NCBI RefSeq assembly: GCF_019029495.1 | Contig: NZ_JAERQM010000003.1 | Span: forward strand, 491,098-555,097 | Origin: Falsiroseomonas oleicola | GTDB taxonomy: Bacteria; Pseudomonadota; Alphaproteobacteria; Acetobacterales; Acetobacteraceae | Direction: 5' to 3' | Length of the DNA: 64,000 nt | Part shown: piece after piece, positions 3,674-38,724 of the stretch | Layout: each line of letters starts with the position of its first letter | Numbering within the stretch: position 1 is the stretch's first letter | Notes under the pieces: model-generated | What the model was told of the DNA's origin: nothing | What the model saw: only the letters and a program-made list of their open reading frames with translations | Database searches by the model: none | Made by a program: the position numbers and the translations under genes

Positions 3674-3763
3674 GCGGCCCGCACAGCGGGCCGAGCGGCC
3701 GAATGGCCGCCGCCGCAAGTGCGGCGAGCCAAGCGCGCGGAGCGCGCGCCCGGCGCCTGAGGG
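3674..3763 (+). repeat. Four-hairpin cassette, copy A (family 1)
   Basis: Ninety nucleotides that fold into four successive hairpins: GGCCCGC-aca-GCGGGCC, GCGGCC-gaat-GGCCGC, CGCCGC-aagt-GCGGCG and GCGCGC-gga-GCGCGC. Conserved linkers GAG and AGCCAA and the tail CGCCCGGCGCCTGAGGG follow the stems. The same order, loops and tail occur at 3778, 12332, 20195 and (minus strand) 38635. It lies beyond the 3' end of polA, in tandem with copy B. I do not recognise it as a described RNA family. A role as terminator, RNA-stabilising element or non-autonomous mobile repeat is inference. Confidence 0.85.
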
Positions 3764-3777
3764 TTTGATGTCAAAAT

Positions 3778-3867
3778 GCGGCCCGCATCGCGGGCCGAGC
3801 GGCCGAATGGCCGCCGCCGCTTATGCGGCGAGCCAAGCCGCCGGAGGCGGCGCCCGGCGCCTGAGGG
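3778..3867 (+). repeat. Four-hairpin cassette, copy B (family 1), tandem with copy A
   Basis: Starts 104 bp after copy A. Stem 1 is GGCCCGC-atc-GCGGGCC, stem 2 GCGGCC-gaat-GGCCGC, stem 3 CGCCGC-ttat-GCGGCG and stem 4 GCCGCC-gga-GGCGGC. Relative to copy A, stem 4 has changed on both sides and kept pairing, and loop 3 changed freely from AAGT to TTAT. The cassette ends 7 bp from the polA stop codon, so its reverse complement would be the first structure in the polA 3' untranslated region. Confidence 0.85.
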
Positions 3868-3874
3868 CATATAC

Positions 3875-6709
3875 TCAATGCGCCTCGGACCAGGAGGCGC
3901 CGTGGCCGATCTCGACGGCCAGTGGCACGGAGAGGCTGGCGACGCCCTCCATGATGGATTTCACCAGCGCCGAGGTCGCCTCCACCTCCGCCGTCGGCAC
4001 CTCGAACACCAATTCGTCATGCACCTGAAGCAGCATCCGCGCGCCAAGCCCGGCCTCCCGCAAGGCCAGCGGCAGGCGCACCATGGCGCGCTTGATCACC
4101 TCCGCCGCGCCGCCCTGGAAGGGGGCGTTGATGGCGGCGCGCTCCGCCCCGCCGCGACGCACGGGGTCCTTGCTGGCGATGTCGGCGATCCACAGCTTGC
4201 GGCCGAAGGGGGTCTGGACGTAGCCGGTGCTGCGCGCGTCCTCCTTCAGCTTTTCCATGCAGGCGCGGATGCCGGGATACTGGCCGAAATAGGCGTCGAT
4301 GATCGCCCGCGCCTCGCCCGGCCCGATCCCGAGCCGCGCGCCCAGGCCGAAGGCGGACATGCCATAGATGATGCCGAAATTGATCGTCTTGGCGCGCCGC
4401 CGCGCTTCCTTGTCCACCGCCTCCGGCGCCAGGTGGAAGATGTCCGCCGCCGTCCGCGAATGGATGTCCTGGCCCTTGGCAAAGGCGTCCTTCAGCGCCG
4501 GCACATCGGCGACATGGGCCAGGATGCGCAGCTCGATCTGGCTGTAATCCGCCGCCAGCAGCACATGGCCGGGCTCCGCCACGAAGGCGCGACGGATGCG
4601 GGCGCCTTCCTCGGTGCGGACCGGGATGTTCTGCAGGTTCGGATCGCTGGAGGACAGGCGCCCGGTGGAGGTCAGCGCCATGGCGAAATCGGTATGCACC
4701 CGCCCCTGGGCATCCGCCGCCTGGGCCAGGGCATCGACATAGGTGGATTTCAGCTTGGCGATCTGCCGCCAGTCCAGCACCCGACGCGGCAAAGCGTGGC
4801 CCTGCACGGCCAGTTCTTCCAACACGCTGGCATCGGTGCCCCAGGCGCCGGTCAGCTTGCTGCGCTTGCCGCCAGGCAGCTTCTGTTCATCGAACAGGAT
4901 TTCGCCAAGCTGCTTCGGCGAGCCGACATTGAAGGGCTTGCCCGCCAGCTCATGGATCTCGCGCTCGTACCGCGCCAGCTTCTCCGTGAAATCGACGCCG
5001 ATCCGCGACAATTCGGCGGCGTCGATCTTGATGCCGGCGATTTCCATGTCACGCAGCACCGCCACCATGCGGCGTTCCACCTGCTCATACAGCGTCAGCG
5101 CCCGCGCGCCGCGCAACTCCGGCCGCAGCGCGTGCCACAGGCGCAGCGTCACATCCGCATCCTCGGCGGCGTAGGCGGTGGCCTTGTCCAGCGGCACCTT
5201 GCTGAAGGTGATGCGGTTCCGGCCGGTGCCGGTGACGCTGTCGAAGGTGATGCAGCTGTGGCCCAGATGCAGCAGCGCCAGTTCGTCCATGCCGTGCCCG
5301 TGCTTGCCGGCGCGCAGCGCGTAGGACATCAGCATGGTGTCATCCACGGGCGCCACGGCGATGCCGCCATTCTCCGCCCGCCACAGCACTTCCAGGTCGT
5401 ATTTGGCGTTGTGCAGCACCTTGAGGACGGAGGGGTCCTCCAGCAGCGGCTTGATCTCGGCCAGCGCCGCTTCGGCGTCGATCTGTTCGGGATGCGCCGC
5501 GCCCATCAGGTCGCCGCTGCCCTCATGCCGCAGCGGCACGTAGCAGGCGCGGCCCGGGGCGGTGGCGAGCGAAAAGCCGACCAGTCGCGCCTTCATGGCG
5601 TTGAGGTTGTCGGTCTCCGTGTCGAAGCCCACCACGCCGGCCGCCTGGGCCGCGGTGATCCATTCGCGCAGGGCCTCGATGGTGGTGACGGTGGCGTAGT
5701 CGCCGAAGGGCGTCGCCTCGGCGGTCGCGACCGGCGCCTCGCTCGCCGGCGCGGGCGGGCGAAAACCGTTGCCGCGCGTGACCGCGCTGGCATCGCCCAG
5801 GCCGAGGCGGGCCAGCAGGCTGCGAAAACCATTTTCGCGCAGGAATTTCTCGAGCGTCGCCGGATGCGGCGCGCGGGTCAGCATCTTCTCGATCGGGCAG
5901 GGCAGCGGCGCATGGGCGTCGAGCTGCACCAGCCGCTTGCTGATCCGCGCCTTCTCCGCATTCAGCTCCAGCGCTTCCCGCCGCTTCGGCTGTTTGATCT
6001 TGGCGGTATTGGCCAGCAGCGTTTCGAGGTCGCCGTATTCGTTGATGAGCTGCGCTGCGGTCTTGATGCCGATGCCAGGGACGCCTGGCACATTGTCGGT
6101 GCTGTCACCGGCCAGGGCCTGCACCTCCACCACCTTGTCGGGTGTCACGCCGAACTTCTCAAAGACTTCCGGCTCGCGGATCGGCTTCTGCTTGATCGGG
6201 TCCAGCATCTGCACGCCGGGGCCGATGAGCTGCATCAGGTCCTTGTCGGAGGAGACGATCGAGACCTCGCCACCCTCCTCCACGAAGACGCGGGCATAGG
6301 CGGCGATCAGGTCATCCGCCTCGAAGCCCGGCTGTTCGGCCTGGCAGACGCCGAGCGCTTCCGTCGCCTCCCGGATCAGGGCGAATTGCGGGATCAGCTC
6401 GGGCGGCGGCTCGGGCCGGTGCGCCTTGTAGTCAGGGTAGAAATCATTCCGGAACGTCAGCCGCGCGCTGTCGAAGACCACCGCGATATGGGTGGCGGCG
6501 TGGCGCGACAGGAATTGCGACAACATCTGGGTGAAGCCGAAGACGGCATTCACATGCGTGCCATCCGGCCGCGTCATCGGCGGCAGGGCGTGGAAGGCGC
6601 GAAAAATGTAGCCGGAGCCGTCGACCAGGATCAGCCGCTTCTGCCCCGCCGCGACCGGCGGGACGGCTTCCTCGACGGCGGTGGCCGGGGGCAGGGCGGC
6701 TTCGGTCAT
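3875..6709 (-). CDS. polA: DNA polymerase I
   Basis: 944 residues, full length, with all three domains. The 5'-3' nuclease spans about 1-300: LILVDGSGYIFRAFHALPP near residue 26, and GDSTDNVPGVPGIGIKTA near 201 with the metal-binding acidic residues. The 3'-5' proofreading domain is intact: DTE at 363-365, HNAKYDLEV around 434-438, and YAAEDADVTLRLW later. Polymerase motif A is DYSQIELRILAHVA, motif B carries RRRAKTINFGIIYG, and motif C LLQVHDELVFE has its His near 897. It fills gaps and removes RNA primers during replication and repair. The ATG is 2 nt after the stop of the small zinc protein gene, so the two are coupled. The tandem hairpin cassettes follow the stop. Confidence 0.98.
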   Translation of the reverse strand: MTEAALPPATAVEEAVPPVAAGQKRLILVDGSGYIFRAFHALPPMTRPDGTHVNAVFGFTQMLSQFLSRHAATHIAVVFDSARLTFRNDFYPDYKAHRPEPPPELIPQFALIREATEALGVCQAEQPGFEADDLIAAYARVFVEEGGEVSIVSSDKDLMQLIGPGVQMLDPIKQKPIREPEVFEKFGVTPDKVVEVQALAGDSTDNVPGVPGIGIKTAAQLINEYGDLETLLANTAKIKQPKRREALELNAEKARISKRLVQLDAHAPLPCPIEKMLTRAPHPATLEKFLRENGFRSLLARLGLGDASAVTRGNGFRPPAPASEAPVATAEATPFGDYATVTTIEALREWITAAQAAGVVGFDTETDNLNAMKARLVGFSLATAPGRACYVPLRHEGSGDLMGAAHPEQIDAEAALAEIKPLLEDPSVLKVLHNAKYDLEVLWRAENGGIAVAPVDDTMLMSYALRAGKHGHGMDELALLHLGHSCITFDSVTGTGRNRITFSKVPLDKATAYAAEDADVTLRLWHALRPELRGARALTLYEQVERRMVAVLRDMEIAGIKIDAAELSRIGVDFTEKLARYEREIHELAGKPFNVGSPKQLGEILFDEQKLPGGKRSKLTGAWGTDASVLEELAVQGHALPRRVLDWRQIAKLKSTYVDALAQAADAQGRVHTDFAMALTSTGRLSSSDPNLQNIPVRTEEGARIRRAFVAEPGHVLLAADYSQIELRILAHVADVPALKDAFAKGQDIHSRTAADIFHLAPEAVDKEARRRAKTINFGIIYGMSAFGLGARLGIGPGEARAIIDAYFGQYPGIRACMEKLKEDARSTGYVQTPFGRKLWIADIASKDPVRRGGAERAAINAPFQGGAAEVIKRAMVRLPLALREAGLGARMLLQVHDELVFEVPTAEVEATSALVKSIMEGVASLSVPLAVEIGHGASWSEAH

Positions 6710-6711
6710 GC

Positions 6712-6936
6712 TCAGTGTCCGCTATCCTCGCCTGCACCCTCGGCGAGGCGGTAGGTGCGGGAGCAATAGGGGCAGGTCACCTGCCGGTCCTCGATGCGCA
6801 GATAGACCAGCGGATGGCCCAGCGCGCCGCCGCCGCCATCACAGCCCGGGACGCGTGTGGTGACTTCCAGAACGTCCTCCGGCGTCACACCGGGCAGGGC
6901 GACCGGGGTGTAGCCGGTCTGTCGCGCATCGCGCAT
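6712..6936 (-). CDS. zf-CHCC domain small zinc-binding protein
   Basis: About 74 residues. The C-terminal half has the CHCC zinc-finger pattern: C (in VPGCDGGGG), then GHPLVYL with the His, then CPYC near the end. This is the domain found in the mitochondrial complex I accessory subunit NDUFS6 and in many small alphaproteobacterial proteins, presumed to bind one zinc. I prefer the second ATG (6936) because GAGGACC lies 4 nt before it; the first ATG at 6948 would add four residues. The stop is 2 nt before polA, implying co-transcription. That arrangement does not by itself imply a replication role. Confidence 0.82.
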   Translation of the reverse strand: MRDARQTGYTPVALPGVTPEDVLEVTTRVPGCDGGGGALGHPLVYLRIEDRQVTCPYCSRTYRLAEGAGEDSGH

Positions 6937-7090
6937 GGCGGTCCTCATGGGCTGGGGCCGGGCTGGGGCAGGCCGGCCATGGCGGGAACATAGGGGGGGC
7001 GGAGGGGCACGGCCAGCCCCGACCTTGCGGGGCGAGGCCGGTCTGCGTTAGCCGTGGGACGCTTCAGGCGGCAGAAGGGTTTGGCGCGGA

Positions 7091-8098
7091 ATGGCTTGGC
7101 GGCGTGGTGTCCTGGCCCTGCTCGCTTTGCTGCTGGCTGCCGCCTGCACCCCCGTGGTGCTGCCCGCCGGCCCCGCCATCGTCATGCCCTTCCTGCGCGG
7201 GGAGGCGGTGGTGACCGCCGATGGCGCGGTGCTGCCGATGCGCAGCTTCGCGCCCGAAACCCCTCCGCGGGCCGTTCTGCTGGCGCTGCACGGCTTCAAC
7301 GACCATTCCGGCAATTTCCTGGCCGACAGCATCGACCAGCTCACGACCGGCGGGCTGCTGGTCTATGCCTATGACCAGCGCGGCTTCGGCCGGTCCCCCA
7401 ACCGGGGCTACTGGCCGGGGGCGGAGACCATGGCCGAGGATGCCATCATCGCCGCCCGCCTGCTGCGCGCCCGCCACCCCGACCTGCCGTTGTTCCTGAT
7501 GGGGGAGAGCATGGGCGGCGCCGTTTCCATCCTGGCCGGCACGGCGGCGGAGGCGGCGCCGGTGGATGGCTATGTGCTGCTGGCCCCGGCGCTTTGGGGG
7601 CGGGAGAGCATGAACGCCGTGATGCGCGGCGGGCTGTGGCTGGCCGCGCGCACCATGCCGATCCTCGGCTTCCAGGGCGGGGTGGGCGGCGTGGTCGCCA
7701 GCGACAATGCGGCAGCGCTGCGCCGGCTGGGCCGCGACCCGCTGGTGATCCGCCGCACGCGGGTGGATGCGGCGGTGGGGCTGGTCGATCTGATGGACGC
7801 GGCCAGTGCGGCCCTGCCCACCTGCTGCCGCGGGGTGGGCAACCGCCCCATGCCGGTACTTTTGCTTTACGGCGACAAGGATTCGCTGATCCCGGCCCGG
7901 CCGGTGCGCGCCGCGCTGCGCCGCCTGCCGCCGGACAGCCCGGTGAGGATCGCCATCCATGAGGAAGGTTTTCATCTGCTGCTGACCGACAGCAACCGCG
8001 AGGCGGTGGTGGGCGACATTCTGGCGTTTACCGCTGATCCCCGCGCGCCCTTGCCCTCGGGCGCCGAGGATTTCGCCCGGGGCTGGCTGGCGCGGTAG
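7091..8098 (+). CDS. Lipoprotein alpha/beta hydrolase (monoacylglycerol-lipase / S33-like)
   Basis: 335 residues. The N-terminus has a hydrophobic signal segment ending in LLLAAACTP, a lipobox with the lipidated Cys at about 19, so the protein is expected to be anchored on the periplasmic side. The hydrolase core shows LALHGFNDHSGNF (oxyanion region), YDQRGFGRSP, the nucleophile elbow GESMGG, an acid in YGDKDSLIP and a His in EEGFHLL, all in monoglyceride-lipase order. It probably cleaves lysophospholipids or monoacylglycerols. It is a single gene, divergent from the zinc protein/polA pair and convergent with the prpF-like gene only 3 bp from its stop. Confidence 0.85.
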   Translation: MAWRRGVLALLALLLAAACTPVVLPAGPAIVMPFLRGEAVVTADGAVLPMRSFAPETPPRAVLLALHGFNDHSGNFLADSIDQLTTGGLLVYAYDQRGFGRSPNRGYWPGAETMAEDAIIAARLLRARHPDLPLFLMGESMGGAVSILAGTAAEAAPVDGYVLLAPALWGRESMNAVMRGGLWLAARTMPILGFQGGVGGVVASDNAAALRRLGRDPLVIRRTRVDAAVGLVDLMDAASAALPTCCRGVGNRPMPVLLLYGDKDSLIPARPVRAALRRLPPDSPVRIAIHEEGFHLLLTDSNREAVVGDILAFTADPRAPLPSGAEDFARGWLAR

Positions 8099-8101
8099 GG
8101 C

Positions 8102-9241
8102 TCAGCCGGGAATCCAGACCCGCCCGTCGAACAGCCGCCGCGCCGTCCGGTAGAAGGACCCGGCACGGGCGACCCATTCGCCCGCCTCCTGCGCCACATC
8201 CGCGCCCACGGTCAGCACGCCGGAAGGCATGCCGATGCGGATCGGCCCCGGCGCCACGGCCCCGAGGCATTCCGCCACCACCGTCCCCGCGATACGCGCC
8301 GCCACGGCGGTACAGAGCGAGCCGGTCAGCGGCAGCGCCCGGTGCGGCTGGCCGTTGGAGATGATGCGCGCCGCCAGGTCGATCTCCCCGGCCGCGATGG
8401 TCTCCCCTGACAGGGTCGGCGCCTCGGCCGGCGGGCTGACGAAGCCGATATAGGGGACGGAGCTGATCGCCTTCGCCGCCGCCAGATCCGCGCCGATGCC
8501 CATGCGGATGGAGGCCTGGAGCCGGATGGCGTCCAGCAGCGCCAGGATATCCGGCCGCGCTTCCAGCTCCTCCGGCAATTCGCGCCCCGTCAACCCGATA
8601 TCCCGCGCCCGGATGAAGGCGGAGGCATTGGCGGCATCGACCAGGGAGGCCTCGATGGGCCCGAATCCCGGCACCTCCAGCATATCCTTGACCTGCCCGC
8701 TGGGCAGCAGCCGGCCGGTGGTGGCGCCGCCGGGCTGCACGAAATCCAGCCGCACCGGCGCACCCGTGCCGCCGACGCCGGGGATGGACAGGTCGCCCAG
8801 GACCTTGGCGCGCCCATCCTCCAGCTCGAAGGTGTTGTGGATGATCTTCTTCGTATTGGTGTTGTAGATGCGGACGGTCGCGGTCTCGCCATTCGGCCGC
8901 ACCAGCCCCTCATCCACCGCGAAGGGGCCGACGGCGGAGCTCATATTGCCGCAATTGCCCTTCCAATCCACGCGCGCCTCGCGGATCAGCACCTGGGCAA
9001 ACGTGTAGTCGATATCGGCGTCATCCCGCTCCGACGGCGCCAGCACGCAGATTTTCGACAGGGACGATACACCGCCGCCCATGCCGTTGAGCTGCCTTCC
9101 ATAGGGGTCGGGCGTGCCGAGCGCCGCCATGAAGATCGCGTCCCACTCAGCCCGATCCGCCGGCAGGTCGCGGGCGTGGAACATGATGGCCTTGCTGGTC
9201 CCGCCGCGCATGAAGACGGCGGGAATGGCGCGCTGGGCCAT
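8102..9241 (-). CDS. PrpF-family isomerase (4-oxalomesaconate tautomerase-like)
   Basis: 379 residues with the PrpF signature: an N-terminal VFMRGGTSKAIMF, a GGVSSLSKI segment and GNCGNMSSAVGPFA, which carry the active-site residues of this diaminopimelate-epimerase fold. Family members isomerise or tautomerise small unsaturated dicarboxylates or tricarboxylates (methylaconitate, oxalomesaconate). The ATG overlaps the stop of tarD as TGATG, so translation is coupled and the two enzymes probably work in the same pathway. The product of tarD is oxaloacetate, which needs no isomerase, so the PrpF protein may widen the substrate range or act on a related hydroxyacid. That link is inference. Confidence 0.85.
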   Translation of the reverse strand: MAQRAIPAVFMRGGTSKAIMFHARDLPADRAEWDAIFMAALGTPDPYGRQLNGMGGGVSSLSKICVLAPSERDDADIDYTFAQVLIREARVDWKGNCGNMSSAVGPFAVDEGLVRPNGETATVRIYNTNTKKIIHNTFELEDGRAKVLGDLSIPGVGGTGAPVRLDFVQPGGATTGRLLPSGQVKDMLEVPGFGPIEASLVDAANASAFIRARDIGLTGRELPEELEARPDILALLDAIRLQASIRMGIGADLAAAKAISSVPYIGFVSPPAEAPTLSGETIAAGEIDLAARIISNGQPHRALPLTGSLCTAVAARIAGTVVAECLGAVAPGPIRIGMPSGVLTVGADVAQEAGEWVARAGSFYRTARRLFDGRVWIPG

Positions 9242-10422: not shown

Positions 10423-10500
10423 TCTTGTCAGTCTCCATCCGGTTGCCGGACTTGTCGCCCCGGGTGACCTGGCCGCACAAGAGGGGGAGGAGGAACCAAT

Positions 10501-12302: not shown

Positions 12303-12331
12303 CGCGCGCGGGCGGCGGGGGGCTTATACCA

Positions 12332-12429
12332 GCGGACCGGTCTCTTGACCGGTCCGAGCGCCCGAATGGGCGCCGCCGCAAGTGCGGCGAAGCCAAGGAA
12401 ACCGGAGGTTTCCGCCCGGCGTCTGAGGG
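12332..12429 (+). repeat. Four-hairpin cassette, copy C (family 1), flanked by short inverted repeats
   Basis: This is the most diverged copy yet fully paired. Stem 1 is GGACCGGTC-tctt-GACCGGTCC, stem 2 GCGCCC-gaat-GGGCGC, stem 3 CGCCGC-aagt-GCGGCG and stem 4 GGAAACC-gga-GGTTTCC. It ends in CGTCTGAGGG. Both sides of stems 2 and 4 differ from copies A and B while pairing is kept. The cassette is bracketed by ATACCAGCGG (12326-12335) and CCGTTGGTAT (12455-12464), inverted repeats with one mismatch. It lies between convergent Bug and ggt genes. Confidence 0.85.
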
Positions 12430-12463
12430 GGCCCGGAGCGGTCACGCGATAGGGCCGTTGGTA

Positions 12464-14137
12464 TTAATCCCCCGCCGCCACCCCATCCCGTCGCGGATCG
12501 GCGGCGCCTTCCAGGCGTCCGTCGGGCCGCCGGCGGATCACCTGGAGCCCGGTATTCATCACCACGACGCGCGGCGCATGGCCCAGCGCGGTCAGCGCCG
12601 GGGCCTGGGCTTCCAGCGGCGTGCCCCGTTCCAGTTCCACCGTCCCGGTCTGGGCGCCGATGCGCGGGCGGGCGGTGGCGCGTTCGGCATCGGCGCCGAA
12701 GGCCAGAACCTCGATCACCGCGGCGGCCACGGCATCCGGAATCCGCGCCCCGCCGCCGGCACCCAGCACCAGTTCCGGCCGCCCATCCGCGCCGAAGACC
12801 ATGGTGGGCGCCATGGTGGTCACCGGCCGCTTGCCGGGGGCCAGGCGGTTCTGCGCCGGGCGCTCCGCGGTGCCGGGATTGGTGGCGAAGTTGGTCATGC
12901 CGTTGTTCAGCGTGATGCCCATCGCCAGCAGCTCGGCGCCGAAATTCAGGTTGTTGGTGGTGGTGAAGGACACGGCATTGCCCGCCGCATCGAGGATGAC
13001 GACCTGCGTCGTCGCCGTCTCCGCCATCGGGTCGCTGGCGGGGGGCAGGGCGCCGTGGCGCTGCGGCGGGTCGCCGGCCGCGACCTCCGCCATCGCGCGA
13101 CCCGGCGCGGCCAGGGCGGCACGCTGGTCGAGATAGGCGCGGTCCAGCAGGCCGGGCAGCGGGTTCGCCACCTGGTCCGGATCACCGATCCAGCGCCGGC
13201 GATCGGCGGCGGCCAGCCGGCTCGCCTCCACGAAGATATGCGCGGCTTCCGCACTGTCCCGCCCGGCGCGGGCGATGCCGAGGCGTTCAGCGATGGCGAG
13301 CGTCTGCAAGACCGCGATGCCACCGGAAGATGGCGGGGCAGCGGTGCAGATGCGGCGCGCCAGCACCTCGGCGCAGAGCGGATCGCGCTCCACCGCGCGG
13401 TAGCCGCGCAGATCTTGCAGCGTCAGCCAGCCTGGTGCCGGCTCCACCGCCACGGCTTCGACCACTGCCTGGCCGAGCGCGCCGCCATAGAGCGCGGCCG
13501 GCCCTTCGCTGGCCAGCAGGCGCAGCGCCCGGGCCTGATCCGCATTGCGGAAGGGCGCGCCGGCCGCCAGCGGCTCGCCGGCCGCGTCGAAATACAGCGC
13601 GCGGATGGCCGGCACGCGCCGCAGCTCCACCGCGCGGTTGCGGATCACCTGATGCAGATAGGGCGGCAGGGGGAAACCATCCTCAGCCAGCCGGATCGCG
13701 GGGGCGAAGAGCTCCGCCCAGGGCAGCCGCCCATGCGCCGCATGCGCCAGGGCCAGCGCGGCGATGGCGCCCGGCACGGCCACGGCGCGGCCGGACCGCG
13801 CGATGGTGGCCGGGCCGATGCCGCCGGCGGTCAGCCGGTCCGCGCTCGCCGCCGGGGCGCCGGCGATGCCCTCGTAATAGCGCAGCCGCCCCGCCGCCTG
13901 GTCCCAGGCCAGCAGGAAGCCGCCGCCGAGCAAGCCGCTGGCATGCGGCTCCGCGACGGAAAGCGCCGCCTGCGCCGCCACCGCCGCATCCACCGCGCTG
14001 CCGCCGGCACGCAGCATGGCCAGCGCCGCTTCCGTCGCATGGGGGCTGGCGGTTGCCGCCATCTGCCGCGTGGCCCGAACCGGCTCCGCGGCAAGGGGCG
14101 TGGCGAGGAGCAGGAAGGCGAGCACCAGGCGGCGCAT
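12464..14137 (-). CDS. ggt: Gamma-glutamyltransferase (periplasmic)
   Basis: 557 residues with a signal peptide (MRRLVLAFLLLATPLAAEP). The Ntn-hydrolase fold is split by autoprocessing. The nucleophile is the first Thr of the ETATTQVVILD segment, near residue 376 (canonical TTH/TTQ), preceded by a large subunit starting around ATEAALAMLRAGGSAVDAA. The small subunit has NNLNFGAELLAMGI and the glutamate-binding loop LVLGAGGGARIPDA. It hydrolyses or transfers gamma-glutamyl groups such as that of glutathione in the periplasm. It is 5 bp downstream of the 2-hydroxyacid dehydrogenase gene, so it is probably the last gene of that minus-strand operon. Its role together with the decarboxylase genes is unclear. 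Confidence 0.92.
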   Translation of the reverse strand: MRRLVLAFLLLATPLAAEPVRATRQMAATASPHATEAALAMLRAGGSAVDAAVAAQAALSVAEPHASGLLGGGFLLAWDQAAGRLRYYEGIAGAPAASADRLTAGGIGPATIARSGRAVAVPGAIAALALAHAAHGRLPWAELFAPAIRLAEDGFPLPPYLHQVIRNRAVELRRVPAIRALYFDAAGEPLAAGAPFRNADQARALRLLASEGPAALYGGALGQAVVEAVAVEPAPGWLTLQDLRGYRAVERDPLCAEVLARRICTAAPPSSGGIAVLQTLAIAERLGIARAGRDSAEAAHIFVEASRLAAADRRRWIGDPDQVANPLPGLLDRAYLDQRAALAAPGRAMAEVAAGDPPQRHGALPPASDPMAETATTQVVILDAAGNAVSFTTTNNLNFGAELLAMGITLNNGMTNFATNPGTAERPAQNRLAPGKRPVTTMAPTMVFGADGRPELVLGAGGGARIPDAVAAAVIEVLAFGADAERATARPRIGAQTGTVELERGTPLEAQAPALTALGHAPRVVVMNTGLQVIRRRPDGRLEGAADPRRDGVAAGD

Positions 14138-14142
14138 GGTGT

Positions 14143-15123
14143 TTAATTCCTTCTGGGAAGGACTTCCTTGTTGACGATCACATCCGGGTCCAGCGTGCCG
14201 GTGAAGCAGGCCAAAGCGGCGGCGGCGGAATCCAGCGCCATGCGGCGCAGCCCCTCCGCCGTGCTGGCGGCGACATGCGGGGTCATGATGAGGTTCGGCG
14301 CGGAGAGCAGGCTGATCGGCGTTTCCACCGGCTCCTCCTCGAACACGTCGATGCCGGCGGCGGAAAGATGGCCGGCGCGGAGTGCGGCTTCCAGCGCATT
14401 CTGGTCCAGCACCGTGCCGCGCGCCGTGTTCACCAGCACCGCGCCCTTCTTCATCCGCGCGATGAAGGCGGCATCCGCCAGGTTGCGCGTCTCGGCGGAG
14501 GACGGCACATGCAGCGTCACGATATCCGCCCGCCCGGCCGCTTCCGCCGCATCATCCACCGGCTCGAAGCCCAGGCCGCGGATGCTGCCCTTGGCGACAT
14601 TCGGGTCGCGCACCAGCACATGCATGCCGAAGGCGGCGCAGAGCTTTGCCACCCGCGTGCCGATGCGGCCAAAGCCCATCACCAGCACGGTCTTGCCGGC
14701 CAGGTCGAAGGTTGGGAGGCTCGGTTGCGAGCCCCAGACCGGGGTCGGCTGGTGCATATTGGCGTTGAAGGCCGGCAGCTTGCGGGCGCAGGCGAGCATC
14801 ATCATCAGCGCATGTTCGGCGACGGAGACGGCATTCGCCTCCGGCGTGATCGCCAGCGGGATGCCGCGCTCGGTCAGGGCGGGGACATCGACGATGTCGT
14901 AGCCGACGCCGTGCCGCACCAGGATCTTCAGGTTGGGGCAGTTCGCCAGGAAGGCGCGGTCGATGCGGATGGTGCGCACGATCAGCGCATCCGCCTTGGG
15001 CAGGTTGGCGGCCATCGATTCCGGGGAGAGGTCCATCAGCACCTCCACCGTGACGCCCGGCGTCGCCCGCATCCTGGCGATGGCTTCCTCGTGGATCGGG
15101 CGGACGCAGATCACATGCGGCAT
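14143..15123 (-). CDS. D-isomer-specific 2-hydroxyacid dehydrogenase
   Basis: 326 residues from the ATG at 15123; a longer in-frame reading would overlap the upstream gene. The NAD domain carries LVMGFGRIGTRVAKL (GxGxxG), with the catalytic residues in order: Arg in VNTARGTVLD, Glu in GIDVFEEEPVE, and His in MTPHVAAST. It is similar to phosphoglycerate dehydrogenase and glyoxylate/hydroxypyruvate reductases but lacks a C-terminal ACT domain, so an anabolic SerA role is unlikely. It likely reduces a 2-oxoacid or oxidises a D-2-hydroxyacid linked to the neighbouring thiamine-diphosphate decarboxylase, whose last codons end 10 bp upstream. Confidence 0.88.
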   Translation of the reverse strand: MPHVICVRPIHEEAIARMRATPGVTVEVLMDLSPESMAANLPKADALIVRTIRIDRAFLANCPNLKILVRHGVGYDIVDVPALTERGIPLAITPEANAVSVAEHALMMMLACARKLPAFNANMHQPTPVWGSQPSLPTFDLAGKTVLVMGFGRIGTRVAKLCAAFGMHVLVRDPNVAKGSIRGLGFEPVDDAAEAAGRADIVTLHVPSSAETRNLADAAFIARMKKGAVLVNTARGTVLDQNALEAALRAGHLSAAGIDVFEEEPVETPISLLSAPNLIMTPHVAASTAEGLRRMALDSAAAALACFTGTLDPDVIVNKEVLPRRN

Positions 15124-20112: not shown

Positions 20113-20194
20113 ATCGGGGCGCTTCCGGCAGGGATGCCGGATGCTGCGCAGGACGGCGCCGCTTCGCAAGCCGGCGTCATGATTGGCCCAACCT

Positions 20195-20285
20195 GCGCCC
20201 GCCAAAGGCGGACGAGCGGCCGGATGGCCGCCGCGCCAAGTGGCGCGCAACCAAGCGCGCGGAGCGCGCGCCCGGCGCCTGAGGG
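20195..20285 (+). repeat. Four-hairpin cassette, copy D (family 1)
   Basis: Stem 1 is CCGCC-aaa-GGCGG, stem 2 GCGGCC-ggat-GGCCGC, stem 3 CGCGCC-aagt-GGCGCG and stem 4 GCGCGC-gga-GCGCGC. It ends with the conserved CGCCCGGCGCCTGAGGG. Stem 3 differs from copies A, B, C and E on both arms with pairing retained. It fills the space between the amidase start and the stop of the 51-residue ORF, four bases from that stop. Confidence 0.85.
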
Positions 20286-20289
20286 CGGC

Positions 20290-29907: not shown

Positions 29908-29918
29908 TAAATGGGTTT

Positions 29919-31609: not shown

Positions 31610-31616
31610 CCATGCC

Positions 31617-32441: not shown

Positions 32442-32444
32442 GCG

Positions 32445-33548: not shown

Positions 33549-33551
33549 CTC

Positions 33552-35150
33552 ATGGATCATGCCGGCATCGCCGCGAACCCGCCGAGCCGGACCGACACGA
33601 CGGAGAACTTCCCCGTCGCCTCTCGCCTGTTGCCGGCCGCGCTGCGGCCGAAGGTGCTGGCCTTCTACCGCTTCGCCCGGATGGCCGATGACATCGCCGA
33701 CGCGCCGGGGCTGAGCCCGGCCGAGAAGCTGGCGCGGCTGGACCACATGGAGGGCCTGCTGGACGACCCGGCCGGTCCGCTCGCCCAGGTCGGCACGGCG
33801 GAAGCGCGGACCCTGCTCTCCGCCTTCCGGCAGGATGCCGTGCAGGACCGCTACCCGGACTGGTCGGCGCTGGAAGACTACTGCGCCCGCTCCGCCGCCC
33901 CGGTCGGCCGGCTGCTGCTGCGGCTGCATGGGGAGACGCAGGCGGAGGCGCCGCGCGCGGCGGATGCGCTCTGCGCCGGTTTGCAGGTCCTGAACCACCT
34001 TCAGGATCTGGCGCCGGACCGCGCGGCGATGAACCGCATCTATTTGCCCGAACCCTGGATGGACCAGGCGGGCGGCGAGGCCGCCTTCTTCGACCCGCCC
34101 AACCCGGCCCGCCGCGCCGTGCTGGATGCGGCGCTGGACCGGGTGGAGGCGCTGCTGGAACAGGCCGCACCCCTGCCGCGCCTACTGACCTCCCGTTTGA
34201 GGTTGCAGGCTGCGGTGACGTTGGATCTCGGCTGGCGCCTTCTGGCGAAGCTGCGCGGGGCGGACCCCATCGCCGGGCGGGTGGCGCTGGGGCGGGCGGA
34301 TTTCGCGGCGGCCTTCGCCGGGCTGGCGCGCGGGCCACGCAGCGATGCGGCCGTGGTGCGCGACCGGGTCGGGCGGGCCGGCAGCAGCTTTGGGCGCGGC
34401 ATGGCGGTGCTGAAGGGGCAGCGTCGGCGTGGCCTCTACGCCGTCTATGGATTTTGCCGCGCGGTGGACGACATCGCCGATGGCGCGATGCCGGAGGCCG
34501 AAAAGCGCCGGCTGCTGGGGCACTGGCGCGCAAAACTCACCGCGCCGGACTGCGCTCTCTCCTGTGAACTGGCCTGGACCCGGAAAGCTTTCGCGCTGCC
34601 GCTGGCGGAATGCGAGGCCATGATCGACGGCATGGAGACGGATGCCACCCCCGGCCTGCGCCTGGCCGATGAGGCGGCGCTCGATACCTATTGCCGCCGC
34701 GTCGCCGGCAGCGTCGGCGCCATGGCCGTGCGCATCTTCGGCGCGCCGGGGGCGCAGGATTTCGGGCTGGCGCTCGGCCGCACCCTGCAACTGGTGAACA
34801 TCCTGCGCGATGTGGATGAGGATGCGGCGATCGACCGCGTCTATGTCCCCGCCAGCCTGCTCGCGCGCCATGGGGTGAAACAGGACAGTGCGGAAGCGGT
34901 CGTCACGCATGCAGGCTTCGTGCCATGCTGCAACGAACTCGCGGCCCGCGCGGCGGAGGGTTTCGCGCAAGCGGAGCGGGAGCTGGAGGCGCATGACAGG
35001 CGGGCGATGAAACCGGCGCGCATCATGATGTGGGGCTACCGCCGGCTGCTCGACCGCATGCTCGCCCGCGGCTTTGCACTTCCACGCGCGCGTCCGCGCC
35101 TGACCAAAGCGGAGAAGCTGCGCATGGCCTGGCTGGCGCTGCGGCCATGA
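33552..35150 (+). CDS. hpnCD: Fused HpnC-HpnD squalene-pathway synthase (hydroxysqualene synthase + presqualene diphosphate synthase)
   Basis: 532 residues containing two complete head-to-head prenyl synthase domains. The first, about 18-255, is HpnC-like: ENFPVASRLLP, the metal motif DDIAD at 46-50 and a second motif NHLQDLAPD near 148-156. The second, about 272-530, is HpnD-like: GSSFGRGMAVLKGQRR, DDIAD at 306-310 and NILRDVDED near 416-424. HpnD makes presqualene diphosphate from two farnesyl diphosphates, and HpnC converts it to hydroxysqualene. In the genomes I know, these are two separate adjacent genes. Here one uninterrupted reading frame joins them, with a short linker at 256-272. 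The stop overlaps the hpnE ATG. Confidence 0.88.
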   Translation: MDHAGIAANPPSRTDTTENFPVASRLLPAALRPKVLAFYRFARMADDIADAPGLSPAEKLARLDHMEGLLDDPAGPLAQVGTAEARTLLSAFRQDAVQDRYPDWSALEDYCARSAAPVGRLLLRLHGETQAEAPRAADALCAGLQVLNHLQDLAPDRAAMNRIYLPEPWMDQAGGEAAFFDPPNPARRAVLDAALDRVEALLEQAAPLPRLLTSRLRLQAAVTLDLGWRLLAKLRGADPIAGRVALGRADFAAAFAGLARGPRSDAAVVRDRVGRAGSSFGRGMAVLKGQRRRGLYAVYGFCRAVDDIADGAMPEAEKRRLLGHWRAKLTAPDCALSCELAWTRKAFALPLAECEAMIDGMETDATPGLRLADEAALDTYCRRVAGSVGAMAVRIFGAPGAQDFGLALGRTLQLVNILRDVDEDAAIDRVYVPASLLARHGVKQDSAEAVVTHAGFVPCCNELAARAAEGFAQAERELEAHDRRAMKPARIMMWGYRRLLDRMLARGFALPRARPRLTKAEKLRMAWLALRP

Positions 35151-36397
35151 CCGATCCCGGCATGGTGCATGTGGTGGGCGCCGGCGTGTCCGGCCTCGCC
35201 GCCGCCCTGGCCCTGGTGCGGGAGGGGCGGCGCGTCACCCTGCATGAGGGTGCCCCAGTCGCCGGCGGCCGCGCCCGCGCTTTGCCGGATGGCACGGACA
35301 ACGGCACCCATGCGCTGCTCGGCGCCAATCGGGCGGCGCTGCGCTTCCTGGAACGGATCGGGGCGCGGGAGGGCTGGGTGGAGCCGGAGCCCGCCGGCCT
35401 GCCGGTGCTGGACCTGGAGAGCCATGTGGCGCGGCGTGTTGCGCTGTCTCCGCTCGGTTGGGGCGATGCCCGCAAGCGGCCGGAGGGGGTGACGCTGGGC
35501 AGCCTTCTGGCCCTGCTGCGACTGGCCTTGCCTGGTGCCGATCGCAGCGTCGCCCAGGCCTTCGCCGCCCATCCCGTGCTGCTGCGCGCGCTGGTGGAGC
35601 CGCTGACGGTGGCGGCGCTGAACACCCCGGTGCAGGAAGCCTCCGCACGGCTGCTGGGCGCCGTGCTGCGGCGGCTCGGCGGGCGCGGGGCGGCGCGGCT
35701 GCTGGTGGCGCGGAACGGGCTGGGGCCGGATCTGGTGGCGCCGGCGTTGGCCACCCTCGCCTGCCATGGCGCCTGGCTGCGCTGTGGCGAAAGGCTGCGC
35801 GGCCTGGTGCAGGGCGGGGGCCGCGTCCAGGCGCTGGAATTCGCCGAGATGACCCTGCCCATCGGCCCCGCCGATGCGGTGGTGCTGGCCCTGCCGCCCT
35901 GGGAAGTGGCGCGGCTGCTGCCCGGCATTCCCGTGCCGCGGCGTCATGCGCCGATCCTCAACGTGCATTTCACCCGGGTGGCGGAGGGACCGATCCGCTT
36001 CATCGGGCTGCTCGGCGGGCTGGCGCAATGGGTGCTGGTGCGGCCGGATGGCATCTCCGTCACCGTCAGCGCGGCGGATGCCGAGGTGGCGCTGACCGAT
36101 GCGGAAGCCGCCGCGCGAATCTGGCCGGAGGTGCGGGAGGCTGCGCTGCGCTTCGGCCTGCCGGGCGACTGGCCGGTGACCCCGCCCCCCGCCCGCGCCG
36201 TGCGGGAACGCCGCGCCACGCCGCGCCACGGGCTGAACCCGCCCGCCGCCCCGCCCCGCCAGCCCCTGCCCAACCTGGCGCTGGCCGGGGACTGGACCCT
36301 GGCCAGCCTGCCCGCGACTCTGGAAGCCGCCGTGCGCTCGGGCGAGGCCGCCGCCGCCGCCTTGGCCCGCGCGCCGCGCCAGCCGGTGGCGGCTTGA
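35147..36397 (+). CDS. hpnE: Hydroxysqualene dehydroxylase (HpnE)
   Basis: 416 residues of the FAD amine-oxidase/phytoene-desaturase-like fold: VVGAGVSGLAAALALVREG, HEGAPVAGGRAR and DNGTHALLGANRAALRFL, the HpnE-typical N-terminus. The C-terminal FAD segment is LALAGDWTLASLPATLEAAVRSG. It reduces hydroxysqualene to squalene. It starts at an ATG overlapping the HpnC-HpnD stop, and its own stop overlaps the aldehyde dehydrogenase TTG, so the three genes are translationally chained. The product squalene can feed hopanoids or, as this operon suggests, C30 carotenoids. No squalene-hopene cyclase gene is in the window. Confidence 0.9.
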   Translation: MTDPGMVHVVGAGVSGLAAALALVREGRRVTLHEGAPVAGGRARALPDGTDNGTHALLGANRAALRFLERIGAREGWVEPEPAGLPVLDLESHVARRVALSPLGWGDARKRPEGVTLGSLLALLRLALPGADRSVAQAFAAHPVLLRALVEPLTVAALNTPVQEASARLLGAVLRRLGGRGAARLLVARNGLGPDLVAPALATLACHGAWLRCGERLRGLVQGGGRVQALEFAEMTLPIGPADAVVLALPPWEVARLLPGIPVPRRHAPILNVHFTRVAEGPIRFIGLLGGLAQWVLVRPDGISVTVSAADAEVALTDAEAAARIWPEVREAALRFGLPGDWPVTPPPARAVRERRATPRHGLNPPAAPPRQPLPNLALAGDWTLASLPATLEAAVRSGEAAAAALARAPRQPVAA

Positions 36398-37740
36398 CCC
36401 CTGGGGAGGCCCTGGCGCGGCTGCGCGCGGCGCAGGACCGGGATGGCCGGCCCAGCCTCGACCTTCGGCGCGACCTGCTCGACCGCCTGGCGAAGACGCT
36501 GCTGGCGCGGGCGGAGGACATCGCCGCCGCACTGGATGCGGATTACGAGGGGCGCTCGCGGCTGGAGACGCTGCTGGCCGATGTGCTCTGCACCGTCGAT
36601 GCCGCGCGCTATTCGCGCCGCCACCTGAAACGCTGGGCGAAGGCGCGCCGCGTCGCCGTGCCCTATCCCTTCTGGCCGGCCAGCGCCTGGGAGGAGCCGG
36701 TGCCGAAGGGTGTCATCGGCATCATGGCGCCCTGGAACTACCCGGTGCAACTGGCCCTGATCCCGGTGGTGGACGCGATCGCCGCCGGCAACCGGGTGGC
36801 GGTGAAGCCCAGCGAGGCGGTGCCGCGCACGGCGGCGCTGATCGCGGAGGTGCTGGAGACGGCACTCGGCCCCGAGATGGCGGCGACGGTGCAGGGCGGG
36901 CCGCTGGTGGCGGCGGATTTCGCCGCCCAGCCCTGGGACCACCTGATGTTCACCGGCGGCACCGAGACCGGCCGCAAGGTGGCCATGGCCGCCGCCCGCA
37001 ACCTGGTGCCGCTGACGCTGGAACTGGGTGGCAAATGCCCGGCGGTGGTGCTGCCGGGCGCCGACCTGGCGGTGGCGGCGAAGGACATCCTGGCGGGCAA
37101 GGCGGTGAATGCCGGGCAGACCTGCATCGCGCCGGACACCGTGCTTCTGGTGGGCCACGCGCCGGAGGCCTTTGCCGAGGCCTGCCGCGCAAGTGGCATC
37201 GCCCTGCCGGAATCGGGCCTCGCCAGCCCGGCCCAGGCGGCGCGGCTGGACCGGCTGGGCGAAGGGGTGGCGTTGGAGCGGCTGGGGCCGGACGGGCCCG
37301 GGCGGCAGCGGGCCCTGGCCCTGGCGCTGCCCGAAGCCGGGTCCCCCCTGTTATGGGAGGAGATCTTCGGGCCGGTGCTGGCGGTGCAGCCGGTGCCGGA
37401 TCTCGCGGCGGCCATCGGCTGGATCAGGGCCCGACCTTCGCCCCTGGCCATCTACACCTTCGGCGCCACGCCTGCGGAGCGCGCGCAGCTTGCAGCCGCC
37501 ACGGCCTCCGGCGCGGTCGTCAGTGACCGGACGGTGGAATATGCGGCGTTTTCCGCGCTCGGATTCGGCGGCACCGGCGGCTCAGGATATGGGCGATACC
37601 ACGGAAAAGCGGGATTTTTCGAATTTTCCGTAGTCTGTTCACATGTTCGGCATGGTCGCTGGAGTCTTTCGCGTCTCTTTGATCTTCCAAGGAAAAGATT
37701 CGCCCAGCAGTTGATCTCCCGTCTGGTAGGCGGGCGTTAA
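36394..37740 (+). CDS. Aldehyde dehydrogenase, candidate C30-carotenoid aldehyde dehydrogenase
   Basis: 448 residues from a TTG that overlaps the hpnE stop (TTGA). Catalytic residues are present: Asn115 in MAPWNYPVQL, Glu210 in LTLELGGKCP, and Cys244 in NAGQTCIAPD. The NAD-dependent FTGGTETGRKVA motif is also there. The C-terminal tail ends in a basic, partly hydrophobic stretch (SLSRLFDLPRKR) that may associate with membrane, as in long-chain aldehyde dehydrogenases. At the end of the carotenoid operon it most likely oxidises the C30 terminal aldehyde to the carboxylic acid, as AldH does in staphyloxanthin synthesis. The substrate is an inference from context. Confidence 0.85.
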   Translation: MTPGEALARLRAAQDRDGRPSLDLRRDLLDRLAKTLLARAEDIAAALDADYEGRSRLETLLADVLCTVDAARYSRRHLKRWAKARRVAVPYPFWPASAWEEPVPKGVIGIMAPWNYPVQLALIPVVDAIAAGNRVAVKPSEAVPRTAALIAEVLETALGPEMAATVQGGPLVAADFAAQPWDHLMFTGGTETGRKVAMAAARNLVPLTLELGGKCPAVVLPGADLAVAAKDILAGKAVNAGQTCIAPDTVLLVGHAPEAFAEACRASGIALPESGLASPAQAARLDRLGEGVALERLGPDGPGRQRALALALPEAGSPLLWEEIFGPVLAVQPVPDLAAAIGWIRARPSPLAIYTFGATPAERAQLAAATASGAVVSDRTVEYAAFSALGFGGTGGSGYGRYHGKAGFFEFSVVCSHVRHGRWSLSRLFDLPRKRFAQQLISRLVGGR

Positions 37741-37758
37741 CGATGCCAAAGTCGAATT

Positions 37759-38400
37759 ATGAACGCATCAAGCGACATGGGTTGGGAGGTTTACACGCAC
37801 AGGCTGTGCCTGCGCCTGCCCAGCGTTGACGACGCCTCGGCCCTGGCCGGGCTGATGGGGCCGGAAATCAGCGCCCGCCTCGCCTCCTGGCCCGTGCACC
37901 TCTCCCTCGCCGCGGCCACGCAGCGGATATGCGACGCACGCGCCGCCGCCAAAGCCGGGCTGGCACTGCCGCTTCTGATCACGCGTCGCGAGAATGGTGA
38001 GATCCTGGGCTGGATCAGCGCAGCACGTTCGGAAGGCGACCACAACCGGGCCGCGCTGACCTATTGGCTCGGCAACCATGTGCAGGGCGAAGGTGTGATG
38101 CGGGAAGCCGCGCCCGCCGCGCTCGCCGCCGCCTTCAACCGGCTCGGCGTGACGGAGATCAGGGCCGCGGTGCAGACCGACAACCTCGCCTCCCGCGCCG
38201 TCCTGCGCGGCCTCGGCATGCGACCGCTCGGCCACGGCCATATCTGGTGCGCGGCCCGGGGGCGGGAGGAGCAGTGCGAATGGTGGGGCCTGCCGCGTCC
38301 CATGGAGACCGGCCTCGGCACCGACATGTCGGATTCGCCCAAAGCCGCCCTGTCCTCCGGACACCAGGACGCCGCTGAGCGCGGCAAGCTGCTGATCTGA
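37759..38400 (+). CDS. GNAT-family N-acetyltransferase (RimJ/RimL type)
   Basis: 213 residues. The start region THRLCLRLPSVDDASALAGL is typical of RimL-like acetyltransferases. The acetyl-CoA motif region is VMREAAPAALAAAFNRLGV, then VQTDNLASRAVLRGLGMRPLG. It transfers an acetyl group to an amine of a protein N-terminus or small molecule; the target is unknown. It follows the aldehyde dehydrogenase by 18 bp and may be transcribed with the pigment operon. About 40 residues after the GNAT core have no recognised function. Confidence 0.82.
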   Translation: MNASSDMGWEVYTHRLCLRLPSVDDASALAGLMGPEISARLASWPVHLSLAAATQRICDARAAAKAGLALPLLITRRENGEILGWISAARSEGDHNRAALTYWLGNHVQGEGVMREAAPAALAAAFNRLGVTEIRAAVQTDNLASRAVLRGLGMRPLGHGHIWCAARGREEQCEWWGLPRPMETGLGTDMSDSPKAALSSGHQDAAERGKLLI

Positions 38401-38423
38401 CAGCAACGCTCGATGCCATCGAC

Positions 38424-38490
38424 CGTTGGTATCCCTATCAGGCCCTCAGGTGCCGGGCCCGCAGGTCAGCCTTTCGGGCGTTGATATGAC
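38424..38490 (-). repeat. Degenerate fragment related to the four-hairpin cassette
   Basis: On the minus strand the tail reads GGCACCTGAGGG, one base from the GGCGCCTGAGGG of the family 1 cassettes, preceded by a hairpin CGCCCG...CGGGC. It is followed by GATAGGGATACCAACGG, which shares GATAGGG and the ATACCAACGG motif with the flank of copy C. The other three hairpins are missing. It lies between the GNAT gene and the tRNA. Confidence 0.4.
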
Positions 38491-38541
38491 TCCGGGCAGC
38501 CCTGGCGAGGCGCTTCGGCTATCGCCATACTGAGGACCCAG

Positions 38542-38623
38542 GCGGGCGTGCCGGAACGGTAGACGGAAGGGTCTTAAAAACCCTCGGCCCTGTGCCATGC
38601 GGGTTCGATCCCCGCCGCCCGCA
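38542..38623 (+). tRNA. tRNA-Leu, anticodon UAA
   Basis: The acceptor stem GCGGGCG (38542-38548) pairs with CGCCCGC (38616-38622), with discriminator A. The anticodon stem AGGGT/ACCCT encloses the seven-base loop CTTAAAA with anticodon TAA. A long variable arm follows, typical of a class II tRNA. The T arm GCGGG-TTCGATC-CCCGC is perfect. CCA is not encoded. Repeat copy E starts 11 bp downstream on the other strand. Confidence 0.95.
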
Positions 38624-38634
38624 TATATGCGGTG

Positions 38635-38724
38635 CCCTCAGGCGCCGGGCGCGGCCTTCGGCCGCTTGGCTCGCCGCATGGGCGGCGGCGGCCGTTCGGC
38701 CGCTCAGCCAGCAGTGCTGGCTGC
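38635..38724 (-). repeat. Four-hairpin cassette, copy E (family 1)
   Basis: Read on the minus strand: CAGCCAGC-act-GCTGGCTG, GCGGCC-gaac-GGCCGC, CGCCGC-ccat-GCGGCG and GCGGCC-gaa-GGCCGC, then the conserved tail CGCCCGGCGCCTGAGGG. Stems 1 and 4 differ from the other copies on both arms with pairing retained. It lies between the tRNA-Leu and the 3' end of the rRNA methyltransferase gene, which are convergent. Confidence 0.85.

Follow-up and report, generated by a model that had tools for sequence, protein, structure and literature searches.

In a 64,000-nucleotide stretch of the Falsiroseomonas oleicola genome, hereafter the window, one multi-hairpin cassette is found five times, and the question it raises is what kind of sequence spreads in this form while its stems keep pairing. 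We consider the cassettes probably to be copies, most without recognisable ends, of non-autonomous DNA elements (MITEs). The observations that bear on this reading are full-length ends with a target duplication, sites unoccupied in relatives, the gene context and the covariation of the stems.

Five cassette copies and their fold

All five copies listed in an earlier note on this DNA were found by sequence check at its positions and on its strands, and the four hairpins with paired stem changes that it described were confirmed in each (Table 1). Searching the window with the H2 pattern returned these five with 0 mismatches and one unrelated match at 2 mismatches, with 0.51 expected from shuffles. 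The common parts are less uniform than had been claimed: the "fixed tail" CGCCCGGCGCCTGAGGG is exact in four of the five copies and has 1 mismatch in the copy at 12332 (copy 3), and the linker AGCCAA is shared by the other copies but reads AACCAA in the copy at 20195 (copy 4). Nor is the tail an independent block, since there is pairing between its GGC and the GCC of the linker, and the lengths of its C-run and G-run are associated. Copy 3 turned out to be longer than described, its inverted ends and target duplication delimiting a 137-bp element.

Table 1. Cassette copies and related features in the window.
Feature	Position	Strand	Basis or detail
Cassette copy 1, short form without recognised inverted ends	3670..3764	+	sequence; R1 match 105.4 bits
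Copy 1 H1	3676-3682/3686-3692	+	
Copy 1 GA	3693-3694	+	
Copy 1 H2	3695-3700/3705-3710	+	
Copy 1 H3	3711-3716/3721-3726	+	
Copy 1 P5	3728-3730 with 3752-3754	+	GCC with GGC
Copy 1 H4	3733-3738/3742-3747	+	
Copy 1 possible P6	3749-3751 with 3761-3763	+	CCC with GGG
Cassette copy 2, tandem with copy 1	3774..3868	+	period 104 bp; R1 match 106.2 bits
Full-length 137-bp element containing cassette copy 3	12327..12463	+	inverted ends; R1 89.6 bits
Copy 3 R1 match span	12328-12430	+	
Copy 3 element ends	12327..12463		left TACCAGCGG, right CCGTTGGTA
Left target duplication of copy 3 element	12324..12326	.	TTA
Right target duplication of copy 3 element	12464..12466	.	TTA
Cassette copy 4, short form; both neighbouring genes run antisense to it	20191..20286	+	R1 90.8 bits
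Cassette copy 5, short form, between FtsJ-domain gene and tRNA-Leu	38634..38728	-	R1 103.1 bits
Decayed relative that has lost H2-H4 but retains recognisable outer ends and tail	38398..38490 (approximate)	-	sequence, by eye; no model match

Single-sequence RNA folding gave z values of -2.76 to -5.04 for four of the window copies and -1.07 for the copy at 20195, where 26 of 200 shuffles fold equally well. For copy 1 the fold predicts H1-H4 together with P5, an extra 3-bp helix that encloses H4 and flips from GCC:GGC to GGC:GCC; the lowest-energy fold of the copy at 38635 (copy 5) pairs the H2 arms with the H4 arms rather than forming four separate hairpins. The tail may in addition form a CC(C)/GG(G) pseudoknot (P6). 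Its (C,G) run lengths, in 111 of 169 parsed copies, were (3,3) in 88, (2,2) in 11, (2,3) in 9, (2,4) in 2 and (3,1) in 1. A second set of 214 copies, parsed with H4 pairing imposed and no constraint on P5 or the tail runs (3 of 217 left out for an unusual linker end), gave (3,3) in 136, (3,4) in 34, (2,2) in 23, (2,3) in 14, (3,2) in 5 and (2,4) in 2. This association of run lengths may be subfamily linkage, and in set A6 the runs never vary. The decayed relative retains a tail with 2 mismatches at 38443-38459 and, by eye, a possible TCA duplication. We also considered the cassette as coding sequence and rejected this, because stem 4 varies in length and the frame of the tail TGA is not constant.

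Copy number and host range

The earlier note had staked its proposal on further copies in relatives, and copies are present in other genomes. F. oleicola itself holds at least about 118 (117 in one search, 118 in others), per-genome numbers being lower bounds both here and class-wide. With strict filters, 26 of 289 alphaproteobacterial genomes taken from a larger group match the core layout, and a motif search, recognising the core in 27 of 30 loci, confirms it in 23 genomes. The loci missed (L380, L384, L385) belong to the three genomes of family label f33; as all f33 loci were missed, the secure counts are 23 genomes (not 26) and 15 family labels (not 16). In these 15 labels, our own included, the linkers, the H3 and H4 loops and the tail recur.

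The supposition that no named family has this layout agrees with Rfam, which has no fitting family: a search of the window gave only tRNA above the gathering score, and the best weak match to copies 1 and 2 reached 17.4 bits against a cut-off of 37. Phage records gave no match to a 203-nt query, and no description of the family was found in the open-licence literature.

Full-length copies have inverted ends and a duplicated TNA

Full-length copies measure 137-164 bp and carry the inverted ends TAC(C/T)A(A/G).../...TGGTA. Using a loose end pattern, we found equal flanking triplets at 16 of 25 candidates from other genomes, where 2000 shuffles gave a mean of 3.85 and at most 11, and at 4 of 11 from F. 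oleicola, where the shuffled mean was 1.33 and the maximum 5 (alone not significant). Overall this makes 20 of 36 pattern matches, some of them spurious. The duplicated triplets are TTA, TAA, TGA and TCA, that is, a 3-bp TNA. Ten of the 16 outside duplications come from one genome, G045, in which ten of eleven copies have a perfect duplication. In copy 3 of the window, the right-hand TTA also serves as the stop codon of the minus-strand gamma-glutamyltranspeptidase (GGT) gene at 12464-14137, where it reads TAA.

Most copies are short. By pattern, 9 of the 118 own copies have both inverted ends, 19 have one and 90 have neither. No target duplication appeared around 93 short copies over 1,440 offset/length combinations (k = 2, 3, 4, 5, 6 and 8, 240 offsets each; best 3 against 0.4 expected), so the short forms may spread by another route. 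On the MITE reading they would descend from full-length forms. One consideration runs against that reading, namely that linkers, loops and pairing should not persist in a dead MITE that has lost its ends.

Paired changes in the stems

Across 75 copies from F. oleicola, 97.3% of cells are paired, compared with 73.9% when shuffled and 35-51% in slid controls, and double changes occur in 20 of 25 pairs. At orthologous sites, compared in place, 53 pairs changed on both sides and 18 on one side only, the latter among 636 comparable pairs, whereas the flanks of these sites diverge by 5-16%. The alignments behind both results were fitted to the covariance model (CM) and lean towards the structure, and the 27 orthologous-site comparisons share sequences (L288 twice; several three-way sets). 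In A6, a small set, three of five covariation measures exceed every shuffle and the other two were matched by 65 and 49 of 500. Single mismatches are more often G.T than A.C, 38 to 13, and 54 to 25 in a looser parse that used no CM, required H2 and H3 pairing and took the best-fitting H1 and H4. This excess hints at a strand-specific fold, which simple cut-and-paste does not need. The idea that stems change faster than flanks was dropped, because about 9.7% of stem letters differ per position, a rate similar to that of the flanks; what differs is the pairing of the changes and not their rate.

The earlier note took kept pairing as direct evidence of selected structure. The paired substitutions stand, but that wording is too strong, as 43 of the 53 double changes at orthologous sites are C-G/G-C flips. 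Because such flips bypass a G-U step, replacement of both hairpin arms at once, whether through template switching or exchange between copies, is just as probable as compensation one step at a time. Within single stems, several pairs also change at once (4 of 6 in H4 of L092/L282, 3 in H4 of L071/L321), and we infer that joint replacement accounts for most changes of stem letters. The flips and the joint changes would also suit a neutral repeat with unselected paired changes, its palindromes being kept perfect by recombination between copies or by template switching during replication. We find this doubtful, because such repair does not maintain the linkers, loops and tail that recur across the family labels, and because the P5 flip couples segments that lie on either side of H4, about 21 nt from each other. 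The core may instead be kept because a single strand, either a DNA intermediate or a transcript, must fold.

Taken further, this would make the cassette a class-wide selfish element selected as a folded single strand: H1-H3, the nested P5/H4 helix and a pseudoknot in the tail would together build a conserved RNA (or single-stranded DNA) that a host or mobilising protein recognises. Such an element, which would still use TNA sites, would resemble a bacterial SINE-like structured RNA more than a passive MITE; this reading seems to us unlikely. Why a tiny transposon should keep so elaborate a paired core over such distances, and whether both arms are replaced jointly or singly compensated, are the questions that the MITE reading raises.

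Position at gene ends and in relatives

With tandem copies counted singly, 116 of the 118 copies are intergenic, 50 in convergent, 31 in sense-tandem, 31 in antisense-tandem and 4 in divergent contexts; in the window, 6 of 20 gaps of at least 60 nt are divergent. The TNA coincides exactly with the stop codon of a flanking gene at 16 of 82 recognised ends, and 6 of 82 lie inside a called gene, genes being called, here and in the other genomes, with a home-made finder that scores codons and took the window as its training sequence. The window is GC-rich, and of its 1314 TNA sites 44 are stop codons and 80 lie between genes, which puts 124 of about 1,300 outside sense coding. Stop codons peak at 7, 20-21 and 24-27 nt before H1. 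We rejected this spacing as an RNA-level rule, because it can be explained by insertion at TNA targets that happen to be stop codons, an account that would extend to the short forms without recognisable ends.

No copy follows polA, whose locus carries copy 2 here, in 12 of 12 other orthologue loci, or the GGT gene in 6 of 6 orthologous loci, a site being called unoccupied when no match lies at the place. In L262 a weak 37.7-bit match lies upstream of the GGT gene and not after it. The FtsJ/tRNA-Leu site of copy 5 is occupied in 6 of 14 loci, our own included, and has no match in 8; in the 5 other genus genomes where it is occupied, the paired stems differ.

Copies at gene ends could also be cis-acting RNA elements of mRNA 3' ends or intercistronic regions, their fold kept by selection because the transcribed hairpins shield the preceding message or govern how the following gene is translated. 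Tails of 19 parsed copies stop 1-10 nt short of a predicted downstream start codon, much as a ribosome-binding site would, certain copies occupy the same position across two or three species, and the scarcity of uncompensated stem changes and the G.T excess would fit as well. We nevertheless judge this quite improbable, given the equal numbers of sense and antisense copies in tandem contexts, the absence of copies after polA and GGT in the relatives examined and the target duplications at element ends. That orientation balance disfavours the strand-specific 3'-end RNA suggested in the earlier note, whereas its non-autonomous mobile repeat is supported by the inverted ends, the 3-bp TNA duplication and the unoccupied sites.

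Under the MITE reading, a complete element would consist of inverted ends, H1, H2, H3 and a GCC:GGC helix enclosing H4, followed by a tail ending in TGAGGG that may pair back and often by a last hairpin before the right end. A putative transposase acting in trans would insert it at a TNA trinucleotide and duplicate the TNA; insertion at a stop-codon TNA would rebuild the stop, and selection against insertions in genes and promoters would confine the surviving copies to the 3' ends of genes, whichever way they point. Targeting of TNA, with stop codons among the targets and restored on insertion, would offer a simple reason for some bacterial repeats to cluster at gene ends, and annotators should take care with the ribosome-binding-site-like GAGGG and the stop codons adjoining such copies. 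What began as a list of hairpins becomes a defined element family, with ends, a target rule, a copy number and a host range across scattered alphaproteobacterial families.

Candidate mobilisers and related repeats

No mobilising transposase was found among the Y1, DUF4096 and DDE_Tnp_1 families examined. None of the 26 DUF4096 loci examined in 8 genomes had matching ends, a few of these loci being truncated at contig ends, and G045, with the freshest copies, has no transposase of the DUF4096 family. DDE_Tnp_1 is absent from G045 (genome 77% complete), and none of the 5 DDE_Tnp_1 loci in 3 genomes has element ends around the gene. Neither family was retained as parent, in view of these ends. 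At the DDE_Tnp_1 locus L443 a TACCA/TGGTA pair is present, but not around the gene.

As described in the part of PMC10969869 consulted, prokaryotic MITEs are short, non-coding, typically AT-rich and intergenic, with inverted ends, a target duplication and stable stem-loops, and are presumably moved in trans by an insertion sequence. The cassette family shares the shortness, lack of coding, intergenic position, ends, duplication and stem-loops of that description. It differs in its GC-rich core, where several hairpins are accompanied by linkers and a nested helix, in its occurrence in many alphaproteobacterial families, in pairing kept while stem letters change, and in that no parent insertion sequence was found at the DUF4096 and DDE_Tnp_1 loci. 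ERIC, RIME, NEMIS and similar mosaic repeats are likewise intergenic, about 100-150 bp long and fold when transcribed, but differ in hosts and sequences. The transposase may be of the kind that acts on the IS1031 subgroup of the IS5 family, which has the same 3-bp TNA target. According to the section of PMC12016507 used, that subgroup prefers TNA and makes a 3-bp repeat; the TACCA-type ends of the cassette family, in contrast, were at none of the DUF4096 loci, and with no ends in common we do not file it there.

The cassettes also resemble GTAG- and CGTC-tagged REP/BIME repeats, which in the available part of PMC3733652 are high-copy, modular intergenic palindromes at gene ends in both orientations. 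A family of this type, moved by a REP-associated tyrosine (Y1) transposase, would share the short GC-rich intergenic hairpins, high copy number, tandem pairs and placement in convergent and tandem gaps reported there. This origin is already largely contradicted and we hold it to be very improbable: PF01797 was found in 0 of 15 genus genomes by a search that matches 5 of 14 control genomes, which led us to reject RAYT mobilisation; no GTAG tag was seen by eye at the cassette ends or hairpin foot of the printed copies; and inverted ends plus a 3-bp duplication mark the full-length forms. In layout, too, the cassette is unlike REP/BIME, having about 95 nt with four hairpins and P5. Acetobacteraceae are named in the same part of PMC3733652 among the families missing CGTC repeats. 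In F. oleicola, CGTC-tagged palindromes, which by eye resemble CGTC REPs, are inserted inside 29 of the 118 cassettes.

Copy number and hosts of the cassette family

The five four-hairpin cassettes claimed by the earlier note are present as described, both in the sequence and as matches to our covariance model of the cassette, R1. In the window, Rfam at gathering thresholds matched only tRNA, and a permissive Rfam scan of copies 1 and 2 gave nothing but sub-threshold scraps. A strict pattern found 75 copies in the 5.6-Mb genome itself (reversed control, 0), while R1 found at least 117 at E <= 0.001 (150 candidates scored) and, on stretches, at least 118 (75 + 43). The further copies that the note proposed to seek in relatives by covariance model do exist: R1 matches 14/14 other same-genus genomes, 2/20 genomes in the family's other genera and 3/24 in other families. 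Among the matches listed in a named-genome pattern scan are Falsiroseomonas, Roseicella, Neoroseomonas, Paracraurococcus, Roseococcus and relatives.

R2, a 55-nt core model covering H3, P5 (a 3-bp helix around H4), H4 and the tail, matches at least 26 of the 289 class genomes searched, the own genome among them (19/224 genera, 16 family labels). With a simple motif search the core was confirmed at 27 of the 30 R2 loci retrieved, the misses being loci of label f33. The core occurs on plasmids of Niveispirillum, Azospirillum lipoferum and Nitratireductor thuwali; in Tistrella mobilis there was a 30-nt match alone, with the core not recognised. Contig 26 of G305, from another family, carries a tandem element array (14098-14555; five core matches, 100-bp period).

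Cassettes in the window and example loci elsewhere
Feature	Position	Strand	Basis
Copy 1	3670-3764	+	sequence, R1
Copy 2	3774-3868	+	sequence, R1
Copy 3	12328-12430	+	sequence, R1
Copy 3, left TTA	12324-12326		
Copy 3, complete element	12327-12463		
Copy 3, right TTA	12464-12466		
Copy 4	20191-20286	+	sequence, R1
Copy 5	38634-38728	-	sequence, R1
Decayed relative	near 38398-38490	-	by eye
Own-genome copies with CGTC palindrome (examples)	L029 1423-1548; L070 2007-2136; L025 1420-1549; L118 2005-2134		
Sense copies with tail near start codon	L071, L077, L078, L087, L026, L024, L080 + 12 others		

Full-length element and target sites

The cassettes belong to a genuine MITE-like family of large size, whose folded core is unusually conserved, and no description of it was found in the literature reached by search. 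In G045, a genome with eleven fresh copies, the element is sharply bordered as [TNA]TAC(C/T)AA...CCTGGTA[TNA]. Equal flanking triplets were found in 16 of 25 candidates outside the own genome (10 of the 16 from G045; shuffled 3.85) and in 4 of 11 own-genome candidates (shuffled 1.33). The right TTA of copy 3 doubles as the gamma-glutamyltranspeptidase stop codon. Of 82 recognised ends, 16 coincide exactly with the stop codon of a flanking gene and 6 fall within a called gene, and 44 of the 124 window TNA sites outside sense coding sequence are stop codons; in an informal comparison the two fractions agree in size, because insertion into a stop codon shows the stop at one end only. A TNA target, combined with the purging of insertions into coding sequence, could account both for the preferred distances from stop codons and for the absence of a preferred orientation.

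Relatives have no copy after polA (copies 1 and 2; 12/12 loci, the same MFS neighbour in about 10 by eye) or after the gamma-glutamyltranspeptidase gene (6/6 loci). The FtsJ/tRNA-Leu place of copy 5 holds one or two copies with differing stems in 6/14 genomes, own included; L253 and L255 have two tandem cassettes there, where other genomes have one or none. Three G045 contigs (C7, C31 and C50; position 54-109) share a starting point next to the element and further contigs stop inside it, the copies being near-identical; thus, the assembly breaks there.

According to PMC12016507, the IS1031 subgroup of IS5 prefers TNA targets and duplicates 3 bp. The family shares this rule, but its ends were absent from all 26 DUF4096 loci examined. 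DUF4096 and DDE_Tnp_1 were both not found in G045 (77% complete), and Y1 transposases occurred in 0/15 genus genomes searched.

A recognisable inverted end is lacking in 90 of the 118 own copies, yet their cores are intact, and no target duplication was seen in these short forms. One reading is that the core has a use, or is protected, once it has been inserted; the other is that the short form can spread on its own. This aspect of the family could be new.

Gene context

Among own copies, 116/118 are intergenic (50 convergent, 31 sense-tandem, 31 antisense-tandem, 4 divergent); of window gaps of at least 60 nt, 6/20 are divergent. A 3'-end RNA role had been suggested, and its simple sense-RNA version is disfavored since orientation is balanced, 31 sense versus 31 antisense. 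Measured from the upstream stop codon, the spacing to H1 has peaks at 7, 20-21 and 24-27 nt (own genome and others). For 19 sense copies, 1-10 nt separate the end of the tail from a predicted start codon; 18 of these tails have TGAGGG and one has TGAGGAAG. The next gene may thus draw its ribosome-binding site from the element.

Pairing and evolution of the folded core

The four hairpins are as the earlier note described, but it overlooked P5 and a possible pairing of tail runs. Pairing cells reach 97.3% in the 75 own-genome copies (shuffled 73.9%; slid 35-51%), with double changes at 20/25 pairs. P5 pairs linker GCC with tail GGC, enclosing H4, and lies within the lowest-energy fold of 3/5 window copies; 214 parsed cores comprise 187 GCC/GGC, 15 GGC/GCC, 0 GGC/GGC or GCC/GCC and 12 other deviations. 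In the tail, the CC(C) run and the GG(G) run vary together in length, which makes them a candidate pseudoknot with P5, although subfamily linkage could produce the association.

Counted over unique hairpins that have no more than one mismatch, mismatches were G.T 38, A.C 13 and other 26 (G.T:A.C 16:1 in H1, 16:5 in H4, 6:7 in H2 and H3 together; 54 versus 25 in a looser parse). Because G.T exceeds A.C, these counts, from related copies that are not independent, hint that the written strand is the folding one.

At orthologous sites identified by flank similarity (27 comparisons among G000, the own genome, and same-genus G001 and G002; flank identity 84-95%), 564 stem pairs were unchanged, 53 had changed on both sides and still paired, 18 had changed in one arm alone, 3 of them still pairing as G-U, 1 had changed on both sides with pairing broken, and 39 were gapped. 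If the approximately 9.7% changed stem letters were independent, arithmetic predicts that, of 636 pairs, about 6 would carry a double change and about 111 a single one. C-G/G-C flips make up 43/53 double changes, and P5 itself flipped in place in L110/L317, L080/L333 and L288/L297. Pairing is thus maintained at fixed places, mostly without a G-U step; therefore, both arms were likely replaced jointly and kept complementary by selection or repair.

Many full-length copies carry an extra hairpin of unrelated sequence ahead of the right end. In one subfamily (L110, L115, L117 and orthologues) H3 has grown to about 45 nt, with P5 flipped in L115 and L317 and not in L110 or L117. According to PMC3733652, Acetobacteraceae is one of the families in which CGTC repeats are missing. 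A palindrome of about 28 nt tagged CGTC lies inside 29/118 own cassettes (at H3 in 11, the tail in 10, both in 8), and its presence varies between orthologous sites, e.g., L072/L330 and L162/L204.
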